Part shown: in pieces, positions 10,358 through 23,401 of the stretch
Layout of the letters: each line of letters begins with the position of its first letter
Position numbering within the stretch: the first letter of the stretch is position 1
NCBI RefSeq assembly: GCF_964033635.1
Contig: NZ_OZ035533.1
Location: 1,798,001 to 1,862,000, forward strand
Source: Chitinophaga sp. MM2321
Lineage (GTDB): Bacteria > Bacteroidota > Bacteroidia > Chitinophagales > Chitinophagaceae
DNA: 64,000 bases
Reading direction: 5' to 3'
The notes under the pieces: generated by a model
What the model saw: only the letters and a program-made list of their open reading frames with translations
Told to the model about the DNA's origin: nothing
Database searches by the model: none
Made by a program: the position numbers and the translations under genes

Positions 10358-11254
10358 TTACCCGGCAGTAAACTGTTCCAGCAACTTATAGGGAATACCT
10401 TTGTATAAAGCCGCTGCATCTGCCTGTAACCCAAATGCGGCAACAGCTGCATGCAACCCGGCGGATTGCTGCCGGTAAAATAACGGAATGATCTCCAGCC
10501 ATTGTTTAATAAGTGCTTCTTCCGGCTTGCGGATCATAAACCGGTGAATGCTTTGCAACATCGGTTCAAAGAAAAGCGCACAGTCTGCGGCTAATTGCAC
10601 AGCGTCATTTTCCTGCTGGATCCGGTGGGTGGTTTCAAACAGCAACTGACAAATAAGAGAATGCCTCATTTCTATCATATCTGCATCGTATTCTTTCACA
10701 TAATGGTCATTCAGATCTGCCAGGAGGGTGGCCTGTCCTGTGAGCAGGAATACCAGGCAATCAGACAGCATTTCCAGTGCAGCAGTTTTTTTTCCTGCGG
10801 AGAAATAAACCCGCGAGAGGTTCTGATATTGCGAGAGCCGGTCGAAAAGCAGGAAATGAAACCCCTGTGCTTCCAGTTTCCTGTTATTGTTTAAGGTATG
10901 ATGAATCAGGCTAATGGCTTTTTCAACGTCGCCTGTACGATGATGGTACAACGATTTTGAGCGGTCGTATACGTTTACCAGGAACGATTTTAACATCACT
11001 TTTTCATCGGGTAATGCATGCAGGTACCGTTCACCTCTTTCAAAAAGATGCTGTGCCACGCGGAAGCGGTTACTGTTCACTTCTACAGTAGCATCCGTAA
11101 ATAATTTCGCGATCATATACAACGTCTGCCGCTCGTTTGTTGGAAGCGCCTTGTTTAATGCCGTCATAAATACACGCAGGTACAAAACGGTTTCTGCAAA
11201 CTGATGTTTGTTCCAGGTGAGTTTCTTTTTAACGGGAGTGGCTGTTTGTTGCAT
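10358..11254 (-). CDS. Helical protein of unknown function, last gene of the peptide operon
   Basis: Not recognised. 298 residues, almost entirely predicted amphipathic helix, without signal peptide, membrane segment, cysteine cluster or catalytic motif. The periodic spacing of Leu, Ala and aromatic residues resembles TPR-like or other helical-hairpin repeats, which often act as binding scaffolds. It follows the degenerate SPASM protein by 3 bases and so belongs to the biosynthetic operon. A scaffold or precursor-binding partner is a guess. Confidence 0.7.
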   Translation of the reverse strand: MQQTATPVKKKLTWNKHQFAETVLYLRVFMTALNKALPTNERQTLYMIAKLFTDATVEVNSNRFRVAQHLFERGERYLHALPDEKVMLKSFLVNVYDRSKSLYHHRTGDVEKAISLIHHTLNNNRKLEAQGFHFLLFDRLSQYQNLSRVYFSAGKKTAALEMLSDCLVFLLTGQATLLADLNDHYVKEYDADMIEMRHSLICQLLFETTHRIQQENDAVQLAADCALFFEPMLQSIHRFMIRKPEEALIKQWLEIIPLFYRQQSAGLHAAVAAFGLQADAAALYKGIPYKLLEQFTAG

Positions 11255-11257
11255 ATA

Positions 11258-12391
11258 TCAGGAGCTAAGAGGTATATTATATTTCAGGTAAACCTTCTCC
11301 GGGAAGTTATGAATGAAAGCAGGGCAGTTATCATTATAACCTTCTTGTTTATCTATCTCTCCACCACAAAGCGGAAGGTAGCTACAGGTGGCGCAAAAGC
11401 TTTTTCCGGTGAGTAAGGATGCCACCATGCCCGGATCATAGTGATGTGTGCCGTTGTCACCTTTCCTGTATTCACAGGGAAGTTTAACCGGCAACAGGTT
11501 CAGGAATAAGCCTTGTGCATCGAGGTATTTCAACAGTTCTTTTTCTTTCAAAAAGAAAGTGCCGGTACTTTCCTGTTCTTCCTGTGAAAGCTGTACCAGC
11601 AGGGTCACCTGCCGATACCGGCGCAGTGCTGTCAATGACTTCATCAGCAAAGGTAACAGTGTCTCATACTCCGATGTAACGGTAACGGTTATATGAAAAT
11701 TGACAGCGGCCAGCAGGCTACCGGAGATCAGTTTTTCTTCCAGTGCCAGCAGCATATCATGCATACGTATCGCGGTATGCGCTTCACGAATCACTTCCGG
11801 TTGAAGGATAATGTGGTCGAGCTTAATCGTGGTGGCAGACAATATTTGTTCCGGGTAATCCCAGTTGGTGCAAGTCCCGCTTTCCAGTTGAAATACAGGC
11901 TGGCAGGAAGCAAGAAGTCCTGCCTTGTCCACCTGGTCATGTACTGCTTCTACCTGGCCGCCCGCTGCTTCCAGGTTGCGGGCTTCCAGCGTGATGCGCA
12001 GTTGCTTCTTTTTTATTGCCGGCGGCGTTGCGGCCTGTAGCCATTCCCGGATCTGTAGCACCGGCAATAGCGGAACGATGTCTGCTTCGCAGGTGAGCCG
12101 TACACTGTATTCATTGGCACGCATATCTGCGGCAGCGAGTTGGTTCTTTATCACGATTTCTTCCAGCTCTTCCTCATCTGCCGGCAGGATCAGGTCATGA
12201 TACATCAGGGTGCTGAACAGGCCATCAGGAATAGCGGCGAAGTTGCCTTCACGCACTAACTGTAACGCATATCCGGTTACTGTAACGCCCATTCCCTTGC
12301 GGAGGGAGTAGAGCATCCTTTTGGCGGAAGGTTCTTCTTTTCCGTCAATGGGGGGAGAGATGTACACATATTTCGACAACTTAAATTGCAT
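11258..12391 (-). CDS. SPASM-domain protein with degenerate radical SAM region
   Basis: A paralogue of the radical SAM/SPASM enzyme at 16036-17445. Its opening MQFKLSKYVYISPPIDG parallels the other's MYKLSHYVIISAPVDE. The C-terminus keeps a SPASM cysteine set (CATCSYLPLCGG then DNCPAF), but no CxxxCxxC motif exists anywhere, so the SAM-binding iron-sulfur cluster is lost. It may be a precursor-binding partner for the active enzyme or bind one auxiliary cluster. The start at 12391 is chosen for this homology and because it lies 2 bases after the P450 stop; the open frame runs upstream to 12559 through P450 sequence. Confidence 0.85.
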   Translation of the reverse strand: MQFKLSKYVYISPPIDGKEEPSAKRMLYSLRKGMGVTVTGYALQLVREGNFAAIPDGLFSTLMYHDLILPADEEELEEIVIKNQLAAADMRANEYSVRLTCEADIVPLLPVLQIREWLQAATPPAIKKKQLRITLEARNLEAAGGQVEAVHDQVDKAGLLASCQPVFQLESGTCTNWDYPEQILSATTIKLDHIILQPEVIREAHTAIRMHDMLLALEEKLISGSLLAAVNFHITVTVTSEYETLLPLLMKSLTALRRYRQVTLLVQLSQEEQESTGTFFLKEKELLKYLDAQGLFLNLLPVKLPCEYRKGDNGTHHYDPGMVASLLTGKSFCATCSYLPLCGGEIDKQEGYNDNCPAFIHNFPEKVYLKYNIPLSS

Positions 12392-13644: not shown

Positions 13645-16014
13645 TTATTCATTCCGGAGTGTTTTAACCGGGTTTTGCCGGATCACTTTCAACACCATGG
13701 AACAAACGGTCAGCATATAGATCGGCATTAAGATAAAGAAGCCACACAGCGGATAGATCCACGAGACAGGCATGTGATCTTTGTATACGATACCAAACAT
13801 CATTTTGATGGCATACATACTCAGCGGAAAGCCAATAACAATGGCGATCAGCAGGTTTTTCATATAGATGCCCAGTACTTTCAGGATCAGGTCAATATTA
13901 CCCGCCCCCATGATCTTCATGATGCTGTAGTTTTTCTGCCTGCTTATTATATTCAGGTATACCAGGCTGAAAAGCCCCATGCAGGAAAGGATCAGCGCCA
14001 GGAAAGCAGAGAAGCTCATGATTTTATTATGCCCCGTTACAATGTTGAAATACCGCTGAAAAGCGTCTTCCTGGAAAGCGCCTTCAAAAGGTACTTCCGG
14101 CGTAACAGACTGCCACAACGTTTTTAGTTGGGCATATACTTTATCTGCTGCTCCCGGTTGTGTTCTTACAATAATATAATTACACTGATCGGGTTCCGCC
14201 AGCGTCATTACCACCGGTTCGATGAGGCTCTGGAAGTCATTGAAACGAAAATCTTTTGTAACGGCTGATACATAATACGCCTGGTCGCCGATCTTCAGCT
14301 GCATACCGATAGGGTCTTTTGTATTCAGGCGCCTGGCCATGGTTTCATTAATCACTACAGTATTGATGCCGGCATTTATTTTCCAGTCGAAAGGGGTACC
14401 GCTTAACATATTAATGGCGAGTGTCCGCACGTAGGCGCTGTCAACACCCAGTTCCAGCACCTTTATATCGTTTTCACTGTCGCCGGTTCTCACGAGCGCC
14501 TCACTGTTACTGAAACCAATATGATCCCTGGCAGTTGCCACCGCTTTTACATCGGGCAGTTTGGCCAGCTGGTCTTTGAAATAGTTGTAGGCGCTTTTAT
14601 TGGCGGGGTTTACCATCAGCAGGTCCTGTTGTTGGTAGCCACGGTCCCTGCTCCGCATATAGTGTTCGTTGGCAATAAAGTGAAGGCTTGCCACGATATA
14701 GATGAAAGCAAAAATAAATTGCAGGGAGAGCATCACTTTGGAGAGGCGTTTCTTATTGCCCGGTGCGCCGCCTCCTTTGAGTATTTCCACGGTCTGAAAC
14801 CTGGAAATATACAGGGAAGGATAAGCGCCGGAAAGAAAAGTAGTGAATGCCATGATGCACAGGAAAAATGCCCAGGTCCACCAATTATCCAGTTCGAAAC
14901 TCAGCCCGATGTCCAGCAGTTTTTCAAACTGCGGCAACAGTACGAAAGCTGCCACCAGGATGCCTGCCAGCAATGCGAGGAAGTTGATGATCAGGTTTTC
15001 CAGCATAAACTGGTAGATGATAAACCCGCGGCTGCTGCCCAGTACTTTCCGTACACCTATTTCCATCAGTCGTCGCGCACCGAGAGCGATAGCCGCATTA
15101 ATATAATTAAGACAGGAAATGGTGATGAGCAGAAACCCGATGAGCAGCAAAGCTATTCTTCCGGCGGGAGGCCCCCAGCCGCGTACGATGGAGCCACGGA
15201 TCCGGTAGCTGTTTAAAGAAAGCGTTTCCAGTGGCGCATAGCCAAACTGGGTGATCTTCAAACCGGGATTGGCCGCATTATAACTGTCGAGATATTTTCC
15301 TGACTGGGTTATTAATTTCGCCATATCTCCCTTTGTGCTGGTTTTTATAAAAGTGGCATTGGTGGTAGCTGTCCAGCTTTCATAATCGGGATTACGTGAT
15401 TTGAGCGCACTATAGTTCAGTAGAATATCAAAATCGAAACTGGCCTTCCTGGAAAAGCGGGCGGCCACACCTCCGATGGTGTAAGCCGTTGCTTCGTTGT
15501 TCCCGAATTTTATATTTAGTATTTCGCCCACAGGGTTGCTGCTGCCGAAATATTTAATGGCTACATCTTCACTGATAATAGCTGCGGCCGGTGATTGCAG
15601 CGCCAGTGTGCTGCCCCATTTCAGCGGGAAGTTAAAGACCTCGAAAAAATCACCATCACTGAAAGTGATGCGCTCATACAGGGCTTCTTTATTCTTCACT
15701 GTAACGGCGCCTGTTTCGCTTTTCAGGCGCACCATATTTTCTACCTGCGGGAAATCCATTTTAAAAGCCGGACCCAGTGCGGCGGGTGCTTGTCCATAAG
15801 TAAGGAGACTGCCATTATTATTCATCTTATATGTAAGCAGGAATACGCGGTCACCATCTTTATGAATGCTATCTACTTTGTACTGGAATTCAATAAAAAT
15901 GAGGATCACCAGTGTACAGGCTATTCCCATCGACAAGCCGATGATATTGAAAAGCGATGTCATTTTATTCTTCCGGAGATTCCTGATTCCGGTCAGCAGG
16001 AAATTGATCAGCAT
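13645..16014 (-). CDS. FtsX/MacB-type ABC transporter permease
   Basis: Inner-membrane protein of 789 residues with the duplicated Bacteroidota layout: N-terminal membrane helix (about 20-42), periplasmic MacB-like domain, three helices (about 285-400), a short hinge and fourth helix (about 430-450), a second periplasmic domain, and three C-terminal helices (about 675-780). It opens LLTGIRNLRKNKMTSLFNI, typical of the family. No ATPase gene lies in the operon, so it must borrow one encoded elsewhere. Its place among the modifying enzymes suggests export of, or immunity to, the mature product. Confidence 0.9.
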   Translation of the reverse strand: MLINFLLTGIRNLRKNKMTSLFNIIGLSMGIACTLVILIFIEFQYKVDSIHKDGDRVFLLTYKMNNNGSLLTYGQAPAALGPAFKMDFPQVENMVRLKSETGAVTVKNKEALYERITFSDGDFFEVFNFPLKWGSTLALQSPAAAIISEDVAIKYFGSSNPVGEILNIKFGNNEATAYTIGGVAARFSRKASFDFDILLNYSALKSRNPDYESWTATTNATFIKTSTKGDMAKLITQSGKYLDSYNAANPGLKITQFGYAPLETLSLNSYRIRGSIVRGWGPPAGRIALLLIGFLLITISCLNYINAAIALGARRLMEIGVRKVLGSSRGFIIYQFMLENLIINFLALLAGILVAAFVLLPQFEKLLDIGLSFELDNWWTWAFFLCIMAFTTFLSGAYPSLYISRFQTVEILKGGGAPGNKKRLSKVMLSLQFIFAFIYIVASLHFIANEHYMRSRDRGYQQQDLLMVNPANKSAYNYFKDQLAKLPDVKAVATARDHIGFSNSEALVRTGDSENDIKVLELGVDSAYVRTLAINMLSGTPFDWKINAGINTVVINETMARRLNTKDPIGMQLKIGDQAYYVSAVTKDFRFNDFQSLIEPVVMTLAEPDQCNYIIVRTQPGAADKVYAQLKTLWQSVTPEVPFEGAFQEDAFQRYFNIVTGHNKIMSFSAFLALILSCMGLFSLVYLNIISRQKNYSIMKIMGAGNIDLILKVLGIYMKNLLIAIVIGFPLSMYAIKMMFGIVYKDHMPVSWIYPLCGFFILMPIYMLTVCSMVLKVIRQNPVKTLRNE

Positions 16015-16035: not shown

Positions 16036-17445
16036 TTATTCATATCGTTTAAAATCTTCCACTGCCAAAGCTGCATCAAAGCCGGATAACCGTTCTTCCA
16101 GTTGTGGCGCTGCTGTATGGCAAAGGAGGTATTTGAGTTCCAGTTCTTTCAGGATATTGAATTTGAAAGGCGGACAGGCTGGAATGCCTTCCACCCATGA
16201 TTTAGGACAGCTACCGCCACAAACGGGTAGCAGCTTACAATGGTGACAGGGATATTTTTCCGTATCCCTTACTACGGTGTACCAATCGTTCAAAGGCTTA
16301 TCGACAAAGGTATCCAGCGTATTTTTTTGCAGGGTGCCCAGTTGATAGGGTGTGCCGTTATAGAAATCCGCATAGGATATTTCCGAGCAATTATAAATAT
16401 TACCGTAGGCATCATATATTTCTGTATTACCGCCGGTGGCCATACAGGTAGTCAGTTTCCTTTTATAGCCGGTGGTGCTGTACGGGTATCCCAGCTTTAT
16501 TTTTAAGATCTGCCACCTGATGGTAAGCATGGCCATTTTTTCTTTTGTAAGTGAAGCCTTGTGCGCATCATTACCACCCCAGGAATAGATGCCCACAAAA
16601 TAGAGCCGGGCTATCTTCGTATGCAGACCGTCTGCTGCCAGGAGACGGATGAGCGGCTCCACACCATCTACATTCTTTTCATCTACATTACAACGGATGA
16701 TGATACTGCATCCCAGGCTTTCATAATCTGCTCTTTGCAGTATTGTTTTCAGGTTATTATAAATAAGATCAAAAGACCCCGTTCCTTTTTTCGTATAGCG
16801 GTGACTGTCATGATAATCACCGGTACCATCCAGCGTTATTTCTATCTGGTCAACATGAAATTTTGTGACCAGTTCTTCAAATACAGGTTCTTTTAACGAC
16901 AGACCATTTGTTACTATTTTGCCGCCGATCTTCACCTCTTCATTATTTATTTTTTCTTTCAGCCGCTTATAGATCATCCGCATCTGGGGGAAGCCCATGA
17001 GGGGTTCCCCGCCAAACCAGCCCAGATATAGATTAGTATAACCGCCGGAGATGAATTTAAGATGGATTCTGTCTGTCAGCTTTTCCACTACATCATCCGC
17101 CATATTTTTTTTGGTATGTTGTTGTCCGCAATAATAACAACCTAACTGGCAGGAGGCAGTGGGTTGAATGGACTCTACCAGTTGTCTGCCAGGAGTAGCA
17201 GTAGCAGCGTGATTTTCGGCCATAATCGTTCCCAGCTCATTTTCCGTTTTTTGCACCAGTATCTGCGCACGCACCAGTTGCTCCTGCACAGAAGCAGGGA
17301 TATGATCTGTCAGGTCGTTTTTCAGGAATTCATAGCAGATCTCCGGGAGCAGCAGGGTGTGGCCAGACCGGGTGGAGTAGGCCAGTCTTCGCTGCTCTTC
17401 GTCAACAGGAGCTGAAATAATAACGTAATGAGATAGTTTATACAT
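16036..17445 (-). CDS. Radical SAM/SPASM peptide-modifying enzyme
   Basis: Iron-sulfur enzyme expected to modify the precursor peptide by radical chemistry. The 469 residues begin with a PqqD/RRE-like region (about 1-75), then the radical SAM motif CxxxCxxC at Cys99, Cys103, Cys106 (SCQLGCYYCGQQH), a GGEPLMGFPQM segment, and a SPASM domain with Cys400, Cys403, Cys409, Cys413 and Cys424 (CHHCKLLPVCGGSC). This arrangement is shared with maturases making thioether or carbon-carbon links. It follows the M50 protease gene by 11 bases. The bond formed cannot be deduced, but the precursor's only Cys and Trp are obvious targets. Confidence 0.93.
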   Translation of the reverse strand: MYKLSHYVIISAPVDEEQRRLAYSTRSGHTLLLPEICYEFLKNDLTDHIPASVQEQLVRAQILVQKTENELGTIMAENHAATATPGRQLVESIQPTASCQLGCYYCGQQHTKKNMADDVVEKLTDRIHLKFISGGYTNLYLGWFGGEPLMGFPQMRMIYKRLKEKINNEEVKIGGKIVTNGLSLKEPVFEELVTKFHVDQIEITLDGTGDYHDSHRYTKKGTGSFDLIYNNLKTILQRADYESLGCSIIIRCNVDEKNVDGVEPLIRLLAADGLHTKIARLYFVGIYSWGGNDAHKASLTKEKMAMLTIRWQILKIKLGYPYSTTGYKRKLTTCMATGGNTEIYDAYGNIYNCSEISYADFYNGTPYQLGTLQKNTLDTFVDKPLNDWYTVVRDTEKYPCHHCKLLPVCGGSCPKSWVEGIPACPPFKFNILKELELKYLLCHTAAPQLEERLSGFDAALAVEDFKRYE

Positions 17446-17456
17446 TTTTTGATTAT

Positions 17457-18761
17457 TCAGTTTTCCAGAGATAAGCGGGAGGGTTCTGTTTTTTTTATTT
17501 TTTCATTACTATACCGCCGGTATCTTTTTTTTGTTTGTACAATGATCTGTCTGATCAGGATGATATAGAAAAGCGCAGGAATGAACAATGCTGAAAGGCT
17601 GTCTTTCAGCCAATCGAAAGTGATAGTGCCGGTTTCCAGTAAAAGTTGTCTCACAAAGGCATACAGGCGCACGGGGAAATAGAGGATGGAGTTGCCATTG
17701 AAAAGCAGCATATAGATAACAAATGCAATGGTTATCCCGATGGACAATAATCCGTATGTCAACAGGAATAGTGCGCGTTTGTCGGGCTTCCAGGTTTTAT
17801 TGATGCCGCTCATTCTGCCAAAGAAACGCCCTACTGTATGCATTGATTTTTCTTTCAAATTGGAGATGCTGAGCAGATCGCTGAGTATCCAGTAGCCATC
17901 GTATCGTAAGAATGGGTTGATGTTGACAAGCAGGGTCACAGCAATCAGGAAAGATACGTCCAGCCACAGGCGGTTGCCGGTAATGTAAAAGCAGATAGCC
18001 AATGCACTGCATACGATTAACTGAAGATAGATACCACCGAAATCTACCACCAGCCGTTGGTTTTTTTGCAGCCGCCAGGTGTCTGTTACGTCAGAGAAAA
18101 ACACTGGTGCCACAAGGTAGAACCCGAAGCCAATATCCCCGCTGGTGGCGCCATAGGTGTCACAAGCGGCGGCGTGTCCAAATTCATGGAGTAACAGGCT
18201 GATATAATTGATGATGAGAAAGTACAGCAATAGTTCTTTCCCTGCATGATGATACACCTGGCTCACATTTACATGTGTAAGGAAGCTGCCGGCCAGCAGC
18301 AGTATGCTGGCTGTTAATAATACCAGGAATACCTGCCGCTGGAAAAGCGGGATAAACAGGGGAGTGATCTTTCTTACAATAAAAGCAGGAACAAGTGTAA
18401 AACGCAGCCGGAGATATTCATCTTTCACTTTTATCTTTTCTACATTATCTGTAGCAAAAATGCCATATCCCAGGATCTGTTTATTAAAAACGTGTACGAT
18501 ATCATCAACAGAGAAATTTTTATTTTGAGATTTATTAAAGTTGATAGCAATCTGTTCGAGGTTGTTGGTACCGTTTACAAGATCGAGCAGGCTTTTGGTG
18601 ATACTGTTGATCTGCAGTTTGGTAGGGGCTTCCCCGTCAATACACAGCGTGTACATATTGGAGCTGAACTGCGTATAAGAGCAGCTGTCGCGTAATACGG
18701 GGATATAGTTTTTATCTATGGTCATAATGTTTGTATAGCAATCGCCTGTTCTTTTAATCAT
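17457..18761 (-). CDS. PqqD-like/M50 membrane metalloprotease
   Basis: Polytopic membrane protein of the site-2-protease type found in peptide natural product clusters. A soluble N-terminal part of about 110 residues resembles PqqD-like precursor-recognition domains. Then come several membrane helices with the zinc motif LLLHEFGHA and the second conserved element NPFLRYDGYW. It probably removes the leader peptide or helps export. The ATG at 18761 overlaps the upstream stop as TAATG and is chosen for that coupling; an ATG at 18725 is a possible alternative, and a longer open frame reaches 18785. Confidence 0.88.
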   Translation of the reverse strand: MIKRTGDCYTNIMTIDKNYIPVLRDSCSYTQFSSNMYTLCIDGEAPTKLQINSITKSLLDLVNGTNNLEQIAINFNKSQNKNFSVDDIVHVFNKQILGYGIFATDNVEKIKVKDEYLRLRFTLVPAFIVRKITPLFIPLFQRQVFLVLLTASILLLAGSFLTHVNVSQVYHHAGKELLLYFLIINYISLLLHEFGHAAACDTYGATSGDIGFGFYLVAPVFFSDVTDTWRLQKNQRLVVDFGGIYLQLIVCSALAICFYITGNRLWLDVSFLIAVTLLVNINPFLRYDGYWILSDLLSISNLKEKSMHTVGRFFGRMSGINKTWKPDKRALFLLTYGLLSIGITIAFVIYMLLFNGNSILYFPVRLYAFVRQLLLETGTITFDWLKDSLSALFIPALFYIILIRQIIVQTKKRYRRYSNEKIKKTEPSRLSLEN

Positions 18762-20776
18762 TAGCTGCGTGCTGCCGGTTCCCATTCCCGGAAGCGTTTC
18801 AATGCACGGGTGGCTACGGCAGTAGAAAAGAGGCTGGCAATTTCTCCGGTGATGGTATTGCCGCCGCCGGATTTGTTGAGCCGGAATGTATGTTGCTTAT
18901 TGTTCCATTTAATAGTGCCGGGATTGGGGATCACGAGGAAATCAGTACCAGGGAAAGCGCCATTCCTGTATTGATGACTGAGGATCCATTTTTTCATGCC
19001 CATCATTTCTTTCCGGTATTGTGCTACCCATTGTGGAGATGCACACAGGGTATCCAGCACCAGCGACGTATAAAAAACACTCTCGCCCGTGATCATGTCG
19101 CAGGCGTAGCTGCCGTTAGGGCGGATGCTGCGCATCACATAGTCCATGGCTTTTTCTGCTTCCGGCGATACGCCCTGATCTTCCAGCAGCATGCTTTGCA
19201 AGGTGAAACAGGTAGGGTAGAGGTAGGACGTCCACCAGTAAGGCGACCAGATGCCGTGTTCATTTCGTTGATCCAGCAGGTAATTCCGGAGCAGTTTTAT
19301 TTTGCGTTGATAAGGTGCTTTGTCCGGCAACTGGTTCAGCAGGTAATATGCCAATGCGCTTACGCACTGATGATCGCCGATCCAGCCTTTCAGCTGGGAG
19401 GGCTTCAACCCCATGAAGCCCGATAATGCAGGATTGTTGCTGGAATAGGTACTGAATCCGCCTTTGGCAGATTGTCCCTTCAGCCAACTATTAATATATC
19501 CGTGTACGTTAGTACTGGTTTTATTAAGGGTGAGGAGTGCCGCCGTGGTGGAATCATAGTCGGGAGTCCAGTCGGTATTATAGCCCCACAAGCCGGCCTG
19601 CCGGTGCTGTACAAGGAAATCAGCCGCCTTGTCCAGGCTCTCTTCCCCTGGTTCCAGGAAGGAGGCAATGAAGCCGGTAGACCAAACATTGCTCAGTCCC
19701 TGCATATTGCTGATCTCATACCAGGAACCGTCTTTGTTCTGCATGTTGCGGAGGTAGTCAACAGACAATCCGATTGCTTTGGCAATACCGGGTGTTCTTG
19801 CCGGTGGTTCGGGTGAATTTATTTTTCCCAGGTAAGTATTGATCCGGTAGGCATGCGTATTTACCTTATAGTAATTCATATTGTTACGGCAGATACCGAG
19901 GATCTTCAGGTAATCACCCAGCTGTGACTGGTAAGGTTTTACGTCATCAATTGCTTGCTGGTAGTAGTCTCTGGACATTTGCATTAGTTTCTCTGCCAGT
20001 TCAGAGATAAAGAAATATTTTTCGATCATTTCCGGTGAGTGGTCCTGGAACTTGTTGCCACGTTCTTTGAACCATTCATGCAGGAGGATGTGACCGAGAT
20101 TGTTTTTTTTGAAGAGCAGATCTTTTTTGAAATCTTCCAGGTCGTCCTGGATGCATCGGGCAATAGAGAAATTATCGATGGACCGTTGCAATGCGTCGTA
20201 TAATTTCTTTTGCCGGCTATGTTTTGAAAAGTAGGCATCGATGGCTACTTTGGAGATGCTGCATTTTGTGATACATAACTTTTTATAGGTATCGAAGCTC
20301 ATCTGCGGGTTGTAGGCTGCATCCAGCAGGATACTGCCCAGGAATTCACTGTTCCGTTTACTCCATAGCTGCCAGAAACCCGGTGAGTCGCCAAACATCC
20401 GGGCCAGTATTTTCAGTGCTTCATCCTGGTATACATGTGCTTTCAGTAAGGTAATGCTGGTGCTTTCCGGAGGGCTGCCGGGCAATTCATCTTTGTCGTT
20501 CATGGCATCTAAACAGAGCAGGTACCTGAAATAGAAGAAGCCTGAAATACAAAGCTGTTGTACAAGATGGTTATCCCGTTCTCCAAATACTTTTTTGAAA
20601 AGGGAAGGGTATAAAAGATAAAATTCGGAATCGAAAAAGGTGTTGGGGAAAAGATGGAATTTGAGATTGCCCGGCAGGGATATGTTATTGTCGAGGTGAT
20701 CGAGAAAGCTTTGCTTTAATTCCTCCACCTTCTTTTTCAGGTGCGACGGGAATTGGGTTTTACTTATATTGATCAT
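18761..20776 (-). CDS. Isoprenyl-synthase-like / squalene-cyclase-like fusion protein
   Basis: 671 residues in two parts. Residues about 1-320 are all-helical and resemble trans-isoprenyl diphosphate synthases and class I terpene synthases: a weakened first Asp-rich region (LDAMNDKDE, 89-97), TYKKLCITKCS (163-173) where the family has a Lys-Thr pair, and an intact second motif DDLED (211-215). Residues about 330-665 resemble class II squalene-hopene cyclases, with QW-type repeats (QNKDGSW, 346-352) and DYDST (406-410) where DxDD(T) is expected. It directly follows the precursor peptide gene. Attachment of a prenyl group to the peptide and its cyclisation is the favoured guess; separate terpene synthesis is possible. 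Confidence 0.8.
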   Translation of the reverse strand: MINISKTQFPSHLKKKVEELKQSFLDHLDNNISLPGNLKFHLFPNTFFDSEFYLLYPSLFKKVFGERDNHLVQQLCISGFFYFRYLLCLDAMNDKDELPGSPPESTSITLLKAHVYQDEALKILARMFGDSPGFWQLWSKRNSEFLGSILLDAAYNPQMSFDTYKKLCITKCSISKVAIDAYFSKHSRQKKLYDALQRSIDNFSIARCIQDDLEDFKKDLLFKKNNLGHILLHEWFKERGNKFQDHSPEMIEKYFFISELAEKLMQMSRDYYQQAIDDVKPYQSQLGDYLKILGICRNNMNYYKVNTHAYRINTYLGKINSPEPPARTPGIAKAIGLSVDYLRNMQNKDGSWYEISNMQGLSNVWSTGFIASFLEPGEESLDKAADFLVQHRQAGLWGYNTDWTPDYDSTTAALLTLNKTSTNVHGYINSWLKGQSAKGGFSTYSSNNPALSGFMGLKPSQLKGWIGDHQCVSALAYYLLNQLPDKAPYQRKIKLLRNYLLDQRNEHGIWSPYWWTSYLYPTCFTLQSMLLEDQGVSPEAEKAMDYVMRSIRPNGSYACDMITGESVFYTSLVLDTLCASPQWVAQYRKEMMGMKKWILSHQYRNGAFPGTDFLVIPNPGTIKWNNKQHTFRLNKSGGGNTITGEIASLFSTAVATRALKRFREWEPAARS

Positions 20777-20817
20777 AATAATCCTACGGGTTTAGTTCAC
20801 GGAGCTAAATGATGAAA

Positions 20818-20844
20818 GGAAAATCCCGCTGGGCGGGATTTTCC
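20818..20844 (-). terminator. Attenuating hairpin between precursor and enzyme genes
   Basis: Perfect 12-bp stem (GGAAAATCCCGC at 20818-20829 with 20833-20844) and 3-base loop, 19 bases after the precursor stop; on the minus strand it is followed by TTTCATCATTT. Partial termination here would keep precursor mRNA in excess over enzyme mRNA, as in many peptide natural product operons. Confidence 0.75.
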
Positions 20845-20862
20845 GGATTCTTTGCCGTTTGC

Positions 20863-21024
20863 TTAGCCAATCCAGCAAACGCCATTAGCATCAATCTCAG
20901 CGATAGGTGCCGCAGCAGCCATTTCCAAACGGGTTTCCAGCTCTTCTACTTTAAAGAGGGAAAGTTTTTCTTCTTCTGACAGGTGTTCGATTTTCGCCAG
21001 AATCTGGGTGTCATTCTTTTGCAT
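20863..21024 (-). CDS. Precursor peptide of a putative ribosomally made natural product
   Basis: A 53-residue open frame from ATG at 21024. The first ~38 residues are helical and rich in Glu, Lys and Leu (ILAKIEHLSEEEKLSLFKVE), like a leader peptide; then an Ala run and a short tail APIAEIDANGVCWIG. The tail holds the only Cys (50) and only Trp (51). The ORF is the first gene of an operon with a prenyl/cyclase fusion, PqqD-like protease, radical SAM enzyme and P450, and is separated from them by a hairpin, the expected arrangement. A Cys four residues from the end and Trp three from the end recall CaaX boxes and ComX, but no family was recognised. Confidence 0.8.
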   Translation of the reverse strand: MQKNDTQILAKIEHLSEEEKLSLFKVEELETRLEMAAAAPIAEIDANGVCWIG

Positions 21025-21310: not shown

Positions 21311-21934
21311 TCAGAGCAAAGTGTATTCGCTCGCAAGTTTTATAACAGCGGTAATATTATTGACAGAAAATTTTTCCATCAGATTTTTACGATGACTTTC
21401 CACCGTATAAGGGCTGATACTCAGTTGTACTGCTATTTCCTGTGAGGTGAATCCTTTCCCTGCCAGGTCCAGTACTTCCTTTTCTCGCCGGGTTATCTGT
21501 GGTATTTTATCCAGATCATGCTGGCCGATAGTGCTCAACGCATGTTGTGATCTGCTACATAAATACAGTTTGCCTTCCAGTACAGAATAAATGGAAGCGA
21601 TGATCTCTTCCGGGGATGCATGCTTGACGACATAACCGCTGACTCCGTTTTGTAACATGGCCATAATTACAGGCCGGTCATTATAAATACTCAGTGCTAT
21701 GATCCTGATATGTTTGAACCGCTGATTAATTTCTTTACAGAGGTGTATGCCGCTGCTATCCGGTAAATTGATCTTCAGCAGGATGATATCTGTTGCTGTT
21801 TCCGGCAGAGCGTCCAGTAGTTCATCTCCCGAGTTGAAATGGGCAGTGAGTGAGAGGTCCGGGTGATTTGAGAAGAGGCTTTTAAAACCTTCTACAACAA
21901 TGGGGGGGTCATCGACAAGAATTACATTGGTCAT
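21311..21934 (-). CDS. NarL/LuxR-type response regulator lacking the phospho-acceptor Asp
   Basis: 207 residues: receiver domain (about 1-120) and LuxR-type HTH (about 140-205; TRREKEVLDLAGKGFTSQEI, then SPYTVESHRKNLMEKF). The acidic pair VDD and the region LLKINLPDSSG are recognisable, but position 54, normally the phosphorylated Asp (LLDINLPD), is Lys. The receiver is therefore probably not switched by phosphorylation and may be constitutively active, bind a ligand, or work by dimer exchange. It lies just upstream of the peptide operon on the same strand and is the likely local regulator. No kinase gene is adjacent. Confidence 0.9.
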   Translation of the reverse strand: MTNVILVDDPPIVVEGFKSLFSNHPDLSLTAHFNSGDELLDALPETATDIILLKINLPDSSGIHLCKEINQRFKHIRIIALSIYNDRPVIMAMLQNGVSGYVVKHASPEEIIASIYSVLEGKLYLCSRSQHALSTIGQHDLDKIPQITRREKEVLDLAGKGFTSQEIAVQLSISPYTVESHRKNLMEKFSVNNITAVIKLASEYTLL

Positions 21935-22242: not shown

Positions 22243-23040
22243 ATGAATGATATTAAACATCAACTCAGGACTGTCAATGTGATCCGGTATGTGACGCCGT
22301 TGCGTGAAGGAGGTTCCTTGCCTGCTATTGTGGAAGCCGATGACGGGTTCATGTATGTGCTGAAGTTTCGGGGTGCAGGACAAGGCGTAAAAGCACTCAT
22401 TGCCGAACTTATTGGTGGTGAGATAGCCCGTGCATTGGGATTGAAGGTACCTGAACTGGTATTTTCCCACCTGGACGAATCTTTCGGCAGGATGGAAGGC
22501 GACCAGGAAATACAGGACCTGCTACGCGCCAGCGAAGGACTTAACCTGGGACTTCATTACCTGTCGGGCGCCATCACATATGATCCGGCGGTAGTAACCA
22601 TTGATCCGTTGTCCGCTTCACAGATTGTGTGGCTGGATTGTCTCCTCACCAATGTAGACCGCACCGCACGCAACACCAACATGCTGATGTGGCACCAGGA
22701 ATTGTGGCTGATAGATCATGGCGCCGCGCTGTATTTTCATCATTCCTGGCAGAACTGGGAGGAGCAGGCGCTACGTCCGTTTATACAGGTAAAAGATCAT
22801 GTGCTGCTGCCACAGGCCAGTGAACTCGCAGCTGTAGACACTGCATTCAGTGCTATCCTGACAACAGACAAAGTGCGTGCAATTATTGATTTAATCCCTG
22901 AAAACTGGCTGGCCGCAGCAGGAACAGATATGCCGGCCAAAGAAAGAAGAGAGGTATATGTTCAATTTTTAACGTCACGAATCGCTCACTCGGAAATTTT
23001 TGTAAAAGAAGCAACACATGCAAGACAATCACTTATTTGA
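22243..23040 (+). CDS. HipA-family kinase-like protein
   Basis: 265 residues related to the C-terminal kinase part of HipA Ser/Thr kinases, in the stand-alone group paired with DUF3037. The active-site segment reads LTNVDRTARNTNML (Asp139, Asn144) followed by WLIDHGAALYF (Asp158), consistent with catalytic and metal-binding residues. The N-terminal HipB-interaction domain of toxin HipA is missing and no HipB-like antitoxin is nearby, so it need not be a toxin. It overlaps the DUF3037 gene by 23 bases. Confidence 0.8.
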   Translation: MNDIKHQLRTVNVIRYVTPLREGGSLPAIVEADDGFMYVLKFRGAGQGVKALIAELIGGEIARALGLKVPELVFSHLDESFGRMEGDQEIQDLLRASEGLNLGLHYLSGAITYDPAVVTIDPLSASQIVWLDCLLTNVDRTARNTNMLMWHQELWLIDHGAALYFHHSWQNWEEQALRPFIQVKDHVLLPQASELAAVDTAFSAILTTDKVRAIIDLIPENWLAAAGTDMPAKERREVYVQFLTSRIAHSEIFVKEATHARQSLI

Positions 23041-23401
23041 GTATGCGGCCATCCGTATTGTGCCAAGAGTAGAGCGTGAAGAGTTTCTCAATGTAGGTGT
23101 CATTCTCTACTGTAAAAAGTTGAAGTTTTTACAGGCCATGATTACGATAGATGAAGAACGCCTCCGCGTTTTTTCCGGTTACCTGGATATGGAGGAACTG
23201 AAAGCATATCTCCATGCCTTTGAGCAAATATGCCTGGGCGATAAAGCCGGCGGTCCTATTGCCCGGCTGGATATCGCTTCCCGTTTTCGCTGGCTCACCG
23301 CCACACGGAGCACCATTCTGCAAACATCAAAAGTGCATACCGGCTTATGCGGCAATGCCGCTGAAATGCTTATCAGGATACATACACAACTGGTGTTGTA
23401 A
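23018..23401 (+). CDS. DUF3037 family protein
   Basis: 127-residue cytoplasmic protein matching DUF3037 by its opening YAAIRIVPRVEREEFLNVGV and FSGYLDMEELKAYL. Function is unknown. It is encoded in the same operon as the HipA-like kinase with a 23-base overlap; the two families usually occur together, so it may be the kinase's substrate or regulator. Confidence 0.85.
   Translation: MQDNHLFEYAAIRIVPRVEREEFLNVGVILYCKKLKFLQAMITIDEERLRVFSGYLDMEELKAYLHAFEQICLGDKAGGPIARLDIASRFRWLTATRSTILQTSKVHTGLCGNAAEMLIRIHTQLVL

Follow-up and report, generated by a model that had tools for sequence, protein, structure and literature searches.

We analyzed a 64,000-nucleotide stretch of the complete genome of Chitinophaga sp. 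MM2321 (phylum Bacteroidota; contig NZ_OZ035533.1, positions 1,798,001 to 1,862,000; hereafter the window, whose numbering we use throughout) that contains a candidate operon for a peptide-terpenoid hybrid. Eight minus-strand genes run from position 21024 down to 10358 and encode, in order, a small peptide, a two-domain fusion protein, an M50 protease, a radical S-adenosylmethionine (SAM)/SPASM protein, an FtsX-type permease, a cytochrome P450, and two proteins designated X2 and X1. The gap between the peptide and fusion genes is 86 nt, and the remaining gaps in the run are either ≤39 nt or overlaps. An initial annotation had placed a 53-amino-acid peptide ending in VCWIG directly ahead of the fusion, with the protease, radical SAM, P450, and permease genes downstream; we confirmed its coordinates and gene order in the sequence and found all of these genes on the same strand, with X2 and X1 additionally following them. 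The peptide (20863..21024, minus strand) comprises a leader of residues 1–35, which carries the motif LFKVEELExRLEM, and a core, AAAAPIAEIDANGVCWIG, in which the adjacent Cys50 and Trp51 are encoded at 20872..20877. Searching the window genome with the peptide at E ≤ 1 returned no match besides the peptide itself.

The fusion (18761..20776, minus strand; 671 amino acids) joins a prenyltransferase-like domain (P domain, residues 1–319, 19820..20776) to a class II terpene cyclase domain (C domain, residues 328–671, 18764..19795). Searches of Pfam and NCBIfam at E ≤ 0.1 and of PDB sequences returned nothing for the P domain; it was identified through predicted structure only, as an all-alpha domain with the trans-isoprenyl-diphosphate-synthase (IDS) fold that matched IDS structures across 286 residues. 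Its first Asp-rich motif, D90xxxDxD96 (20489..20509), retains D90, D94, and D96 in 41/41 fusions of the clade to which the window protein belongs (clade A), and its second, QDDLEDFKKD (20120..20149), retains D211, D212, D215, and D219 in all 41 and the preceding Gln210 in 38. The C domain was predicted to form an alpha-barrel with a DxD acid motif, as in class II MstE-like cyclases, and the two acidic residues of this motif, D406-Y-D408-S (19550..19561), were present in 91/91 sequences. They align with the DxD of MstE, which should presumably contain D109. The predicted structures thereby bore out the claim of the initial annotation that an IDS-like domain is fused to a cyclase domain. Two other loci depart from this architecture: in L056 (8634-10555) the P and C domains lie in two adjacent overlapping open reading frames (ORFs) with no fusion, and in L036 (9048-10766) the frame of a distant P-C fusion has one in-frame stop and no protease gene beside it, and this locus looks decayed.

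The peptide and the fusion, whose co-occurrence the initial annotation had proposed to check, were found together in other genomes, which left its reading unrefuted. A scan of genome contigs with two patterns yielded five loci, and a related peptide lay upstream of the fusion in each of the four clade A loci with upstream sequence: the window, Parachryseolinea silvisoli (L007), Chryseobacterium sp. ISL-6 (L009, which has two peptide copies with the same core), and L034, whose fusion is identical to a fusion named Flavobacterium (P0030). We left L008 out of this count, as only ~100 bases precede its fusion match. These relatives share the leader motif and have CW in the core. More broadly, 20 of the 41 clade A fusions paired with a related peptide, as judged by an indirect proxy for a shared contig, and this number is a lower bound because many contigs are short. 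A profile search found 97 peptide relatives at E ≤ 10, of which 23 (on 22 contigs by the same proxy) paired with fusions, comprising the 20 in clade A and two others; among the peptides paired with clade A, 20 of 21 had Trp among the last four residues. Although all 97 relatives had Trp in the core, we did not lean on this count because the query profile itself contained CW. A control search of proteins with the leader only gave Trp in 6/6 candidates, a sample too small to be informative.

Because of this bias, we put the question of the modified residue to loci found through the fusion instead. We considered 17 loci with both P and C domains (P+C loci), of which 14 had a precursor, for a total of 20 peptides; dropped before the count were L008, L010, and L036, in which no precursor was found, and L037, L044-L046, L057-L059, L062, L063, and L066-L069, which had only a P domain or only a C domain. 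The leader pattern found the peptides in ten of the P+C loci (16/16 with Trp). In all, Trp was present in 20/20 cores and Cys in 13/20. The position of Trp differed between groups, being at or near the C terminus in clade A but directly after the leader in the distant clusters L035, L039, L055, and L056. In L039 (7319-8364), a distant P-C fusion is preceded by five precursors in tandem, which have VEELE leaders and differing tails, with Trp within three residues of the leader.

The presence of Cys followed a different pattern. In 8/8 loci with a radical SAM gene, a Cys lay no more than two residues from the Trp, as CW in the window, L007, L009, and L034 and as WIC or WC in L038, L040, L041, and L042, whereas this was so in 0/6 loci with no radical SAM gene in the examined stretch (L011, L035, L039, L043, L055, and L056; Fisher p 3.3e-4, a value inflated by relatedness). 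In L038 and L040-L042, the radical SAM gene was recognized solely by its match to the window protein (E about 1e-13). On the fusion tree, the radical SAM label takes three changes, two of them forced by well-supported branches, with gains and losses not distinguished, and its pairing with a Cys beside the Trp occurs on separate branches (one clade has CW, others WIC or WC). Because Trp is constant and the neighboring Cys tracks the radical SAM gene, comparison of these sequences indicates that Trp is the likely terpenylation site of the core, with the adjoining Cys as the likely target of the radical SAM enzyme. The initial annotation had left open whether Trp or Cys is prenylated; Trp is favored by these counts, and Cys is not.

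We consider it probable that the operon makes a peptide in which Trp51 is prenylated by the P domain and the chain is then closed into rings by the C domain. This interpretation draws on the gene order and its conservation, on Asp motifs that are intact in the P and C domains alike, and on the Trp in all P+C cores; these features, together with the predicted folds, also lend support to the suggestion of the initial annotation that the fusion acts on the peptide. In the proposed pathway, the M50 protease would engage the leader through an N-terminal PqqD-like domain, which its predicted structure suggests is likely to bind it. The P domain is predicted to prenylate Trp51 (rather than Cys) with a chain that would be C15–C20. 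The chain would be attached before cyclization, by analogy with MstE, and the C domain would close the new chain into rings. The radical SAM enzyme may modify the neighboring Cys50, the P450 may oxidize the product, the protease would remove the leader near LEM-A, and the permease would export the product or protect the cell.

Peptide-acting fusions of this type have been described, contrary to the view of the initial annotation that the product class was new. According to the text available from a review (PMC13290415), Hubrich et al. (2024) described two fusions, ChrPC and NctPC, that attach a prenyl chain to a Trp of a peptide and then cyclize it: ChrPC has an IDS-like P domain that transfers C10–C20 donors onto an internal Trp of the peptide and a C domain that cyclizes the chain, and NctPC combines an ABBA-type P domain, which puts geranylgeranyl on Trp, with an MstE-like C domain that then cyclizes it. 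The window protein resembles ChrPC, as compared by description only, in having an IDS-like P domain and a class II cyclase C domain, an adjacent Trp precursor, both Asp-rich motifs, and the Gln just before the second motif that the same text gives as a criterion. Its Trp51 is also internal, as in the ChrPC substrate, because it is third from the end of the peptide. Like NctPC, it is a P-C fusion whose C domain is MstE-like, but its P domain is all-alpha and IDS-like rather than an ABBA-type barrel. MstE itself (PDB 6sbb-6sbg) differs in being a stand-alone enzyme with a small-molecule substrate. PalQ and ComQ are likewise IDS-like enzymes that prenylate Trp in ribosomal peptides (PMC10853753, PMC13290415), and PalQ acts on a C-terminal Trp (PMC10853753); however, the parts of these sources available describe no cyclase domain in either enzyme, and PalQ activity is abolished by C-terminal extensions past the Trp (PMC13290415), whereas two residues follow the Trp in the window peptide. 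Among the matches listed in a literature search, the accessible text beyond PMC13290415 and PMC12715784 (which cites Hubrich et al., 2024) held no description of such peptide-acting fusions, and no description was found of a gene set with radical SAM, P450, X1, and X2. The product class is already published, and the window operon is a well-supported further member of it.

Other assignments of the chain were weighed against this one. Eukaryotic S-prenylation is a precedent for prenylation of Cys, and the chain could instead be placed on Cys50, with Trp serving recognition; the Cys adjoins the Trp in the window, L007, L009, and L034, and is found in all 23 of the cores paired by proxy with fusions. 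We nevertheless judge this very unlikely and rejected Cys as the general prenylation site: 7/20 P+C cores are without Cys while 20/20 have Trp, the Cys beside the Trp follows the radical SAM gene, and the characterized trans-IDS-like enzymes of this type all target Trp according to the available text of PMC13290415. A further alternative is that the fusion makes a free cyclic terpene and that the radical SAM peptide encoded in the same operon is unrelated to it. In fungi and plants, proteins that combine class I and class II domains do make free terpenes, and an IDS-like fold is by itself no proof of a peptide acceptor. However, the precursor and the M50 gene also accompany P+C genes at loci in which no radical SAM gene was observed (L011, L035, L039, L055, and L056), indicating that the peptide belongs with the fusion itself. 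Published relatives act on peptides (PMC13290415). We therefore rejected a free terpene synthase, which strikes us as highly improbable. The two domains might also act in the opposite order, the C domain first cyclizing a free prenyl diphosphate and the P domain then moving the ready-cyclized terpene onto Trp. Drimenyl and copalyl diphosphate synthases cyclize free prenyl diphosphates in this way, and the substrate of MstE is an aromatic ring that already carries its prenyl chain; we regard this order as unlikely.

Several observations weigh against terpenylation of Trp51 by the fusion. A shared fold does not show function, and MstE is not the sole top match for the C domain, with other cyclases tying. 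The model of the M50 protease is weak (predicted local distance difference test score, pLDDT, 66), and Foldseek alone gave no match for it at E ≤ 0.001; in L036 and L043, no M50 gene was found beside the fusion. The precursors of L038, L040, L041, and L043 were selected by visual inspection of small-ORF lists, and one peptide paired by proxy (P0156, with fusion P0049) has its sole Trp directly after the leader. Because of shared ancestry, the loci behind the Trp and Cys counts are not independent of one another; inside clade A, the conservation of Cys equals that of Trp. The absence of a radical SAM gene applies only to the stretch examined (12–22 kb), and L035 ends ~280 bases past its peptide. 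In addition, the fusion tree is long-branched, and 38 of 500 shuffles clustered the radical SAM label equally well. Finally, three of the five cores at loci with a P domain only in the order of genome G248 (L057-L059) have no Trp, and the P-domain family is therefore not tied to Trp everywhere; another residue may be modified by these enzymes.

In these three loci, the P-only enzyme is accompanied by an M50 protease, and the cores (L057 9034-9201, L058 7919-8297, and L059 10441-11095) start with TFYY, TFYC, or TCYC. In each of L057 and L058, a wider leader pattern also matched a single ORF, which we took as chance. Four other P-only loci have ORFs of 100–151 amino acids before the enzyme (L066 767-1195, L067 941-1243, L068 935-1237, and L069 818-1273), which have a different type of leader and a Trp among the 12 C-terminal residues (in two cases as VPWS, in the others as CPWNDC and CPWGDC); these pairs recall PalX/PalQ.

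The remaining genes of the operon all lie on the minus strand. The membrane metalloprotease of M50 type (17457..18785, with the motif HEFGH) has the PqqD-like fold of a recognition element of ribosomally synthesized and post-translationally modified peptides at its N terminus (residues 18–112), as assigned from the weak predicted model; Pfam gave no PqqD match in six M50 proteins. The protease belongs to the same superfamily as the M50 proteases of daptides and epipeptides (YydH, LiaK) and here adjoins a radical SAM peptide maturase, but it falls far short of the cut-offs of these families (daptide HExxH family, 3e-41, 141.8 vs 300; YydH/LiaK, 2e-17, 63.6 vs 225), and we therefore rejected a daptide or epipeptide system. 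The radical SAM/SPASM peptide maturase (16036..17445) contains both the CxxxCxxC motif (CQLGCYYC) and a SPASM domain; it scored above the cut-off of TIGR04085 (41.4 vs 27) and reached no equivalog cut-off among the 25 families listed. The FtsX/MacB-type ATP-binding cassette (ABC) permease (13645..16014), which is present in L007 and absent from L009 and L034, is a likely candidate for export or self-protection. The P450 (12394..13605) has an intact YGAGAYRCIG, which we take to be its heme-Cys motif. X2 (11258..12391, its start set by alignment with L007 and L009) has an N terminus resembling that of the radical SAM maturase and a SPASM-like Cys tail with no CxxxCxxC, and is only 217 amino acids long in L009 and L034. 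Its sequence looks like that of a radical SAM/SPASM maturase whose radical SAM center has been lost, and it is a possible leader-binding scaffold. X1 (10358..11254) is weakly tetratricopeptide repeat–like (E 0.0064, below cut-off) and occurs in all four clade A clusters seen whole.

Between the peptide and fusion genes, a stem-loop (20818..20844) with a perfect 12-bp stem and a 3-nt loop (z -2.93 for the 89-nt gap region) might act as an attenuator that favors peptide over enzyme by lowering read-through into the enzyme genes; a terminator scan marked it as terminator-like on the plus strand only, which is not the strand of the operon. Upstream of the operon lie a LuxR/NarL-type response regulator (21311..21934, minus strand), which is a possible regulator, and, on the opposite strand, a HipA-like kinase adjoining a DUF3037 protein (22243-23401).

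Matches to the fusion were found in 5 of 195 genomes of the window's family, namely its own genome, a distant match over most of the length at 25% identity (G114), and three matches to the C domain only. Across the phylum, 16/395 genomes matched, as did 8/395 in the order of G248. In the order of genome G261, 38 of 164 genomes matched, many of them weakly (E near 1e-4, frames of 330–340 amino acids), and these weak matches are probably ordinary polyprenyl synthases. Because three further genomes of the window genus (G006, G106, and G177) had no fusion match, the cluster is patchy.

Ribosomal peptides bearing cyclized terpenes, described in 2024, unite two major natural-product families, and the window operon presents the P-C type, along with a full set of tailoring genes, in a complete genome. 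The association of Trp with the fusion and of Cys with the radical SAM gene turns the cluster into a residue-level hypothesis, and the leader motif FKVEELExRLEM with a core Trp provides a handle for genome mining. More tentatively, with the odds somewhat against it, a single dipeptide may be modified twice, acquiring a polycyclic terpene on Trp and a radical SAM modification (e.g., a thioether bridge) on the adjacent Cys, possibly joined or oxidized by the P450. If true, this double modification would yield a compact peptide-terpenoid head group from a set of enzymes not described in the text available to us.

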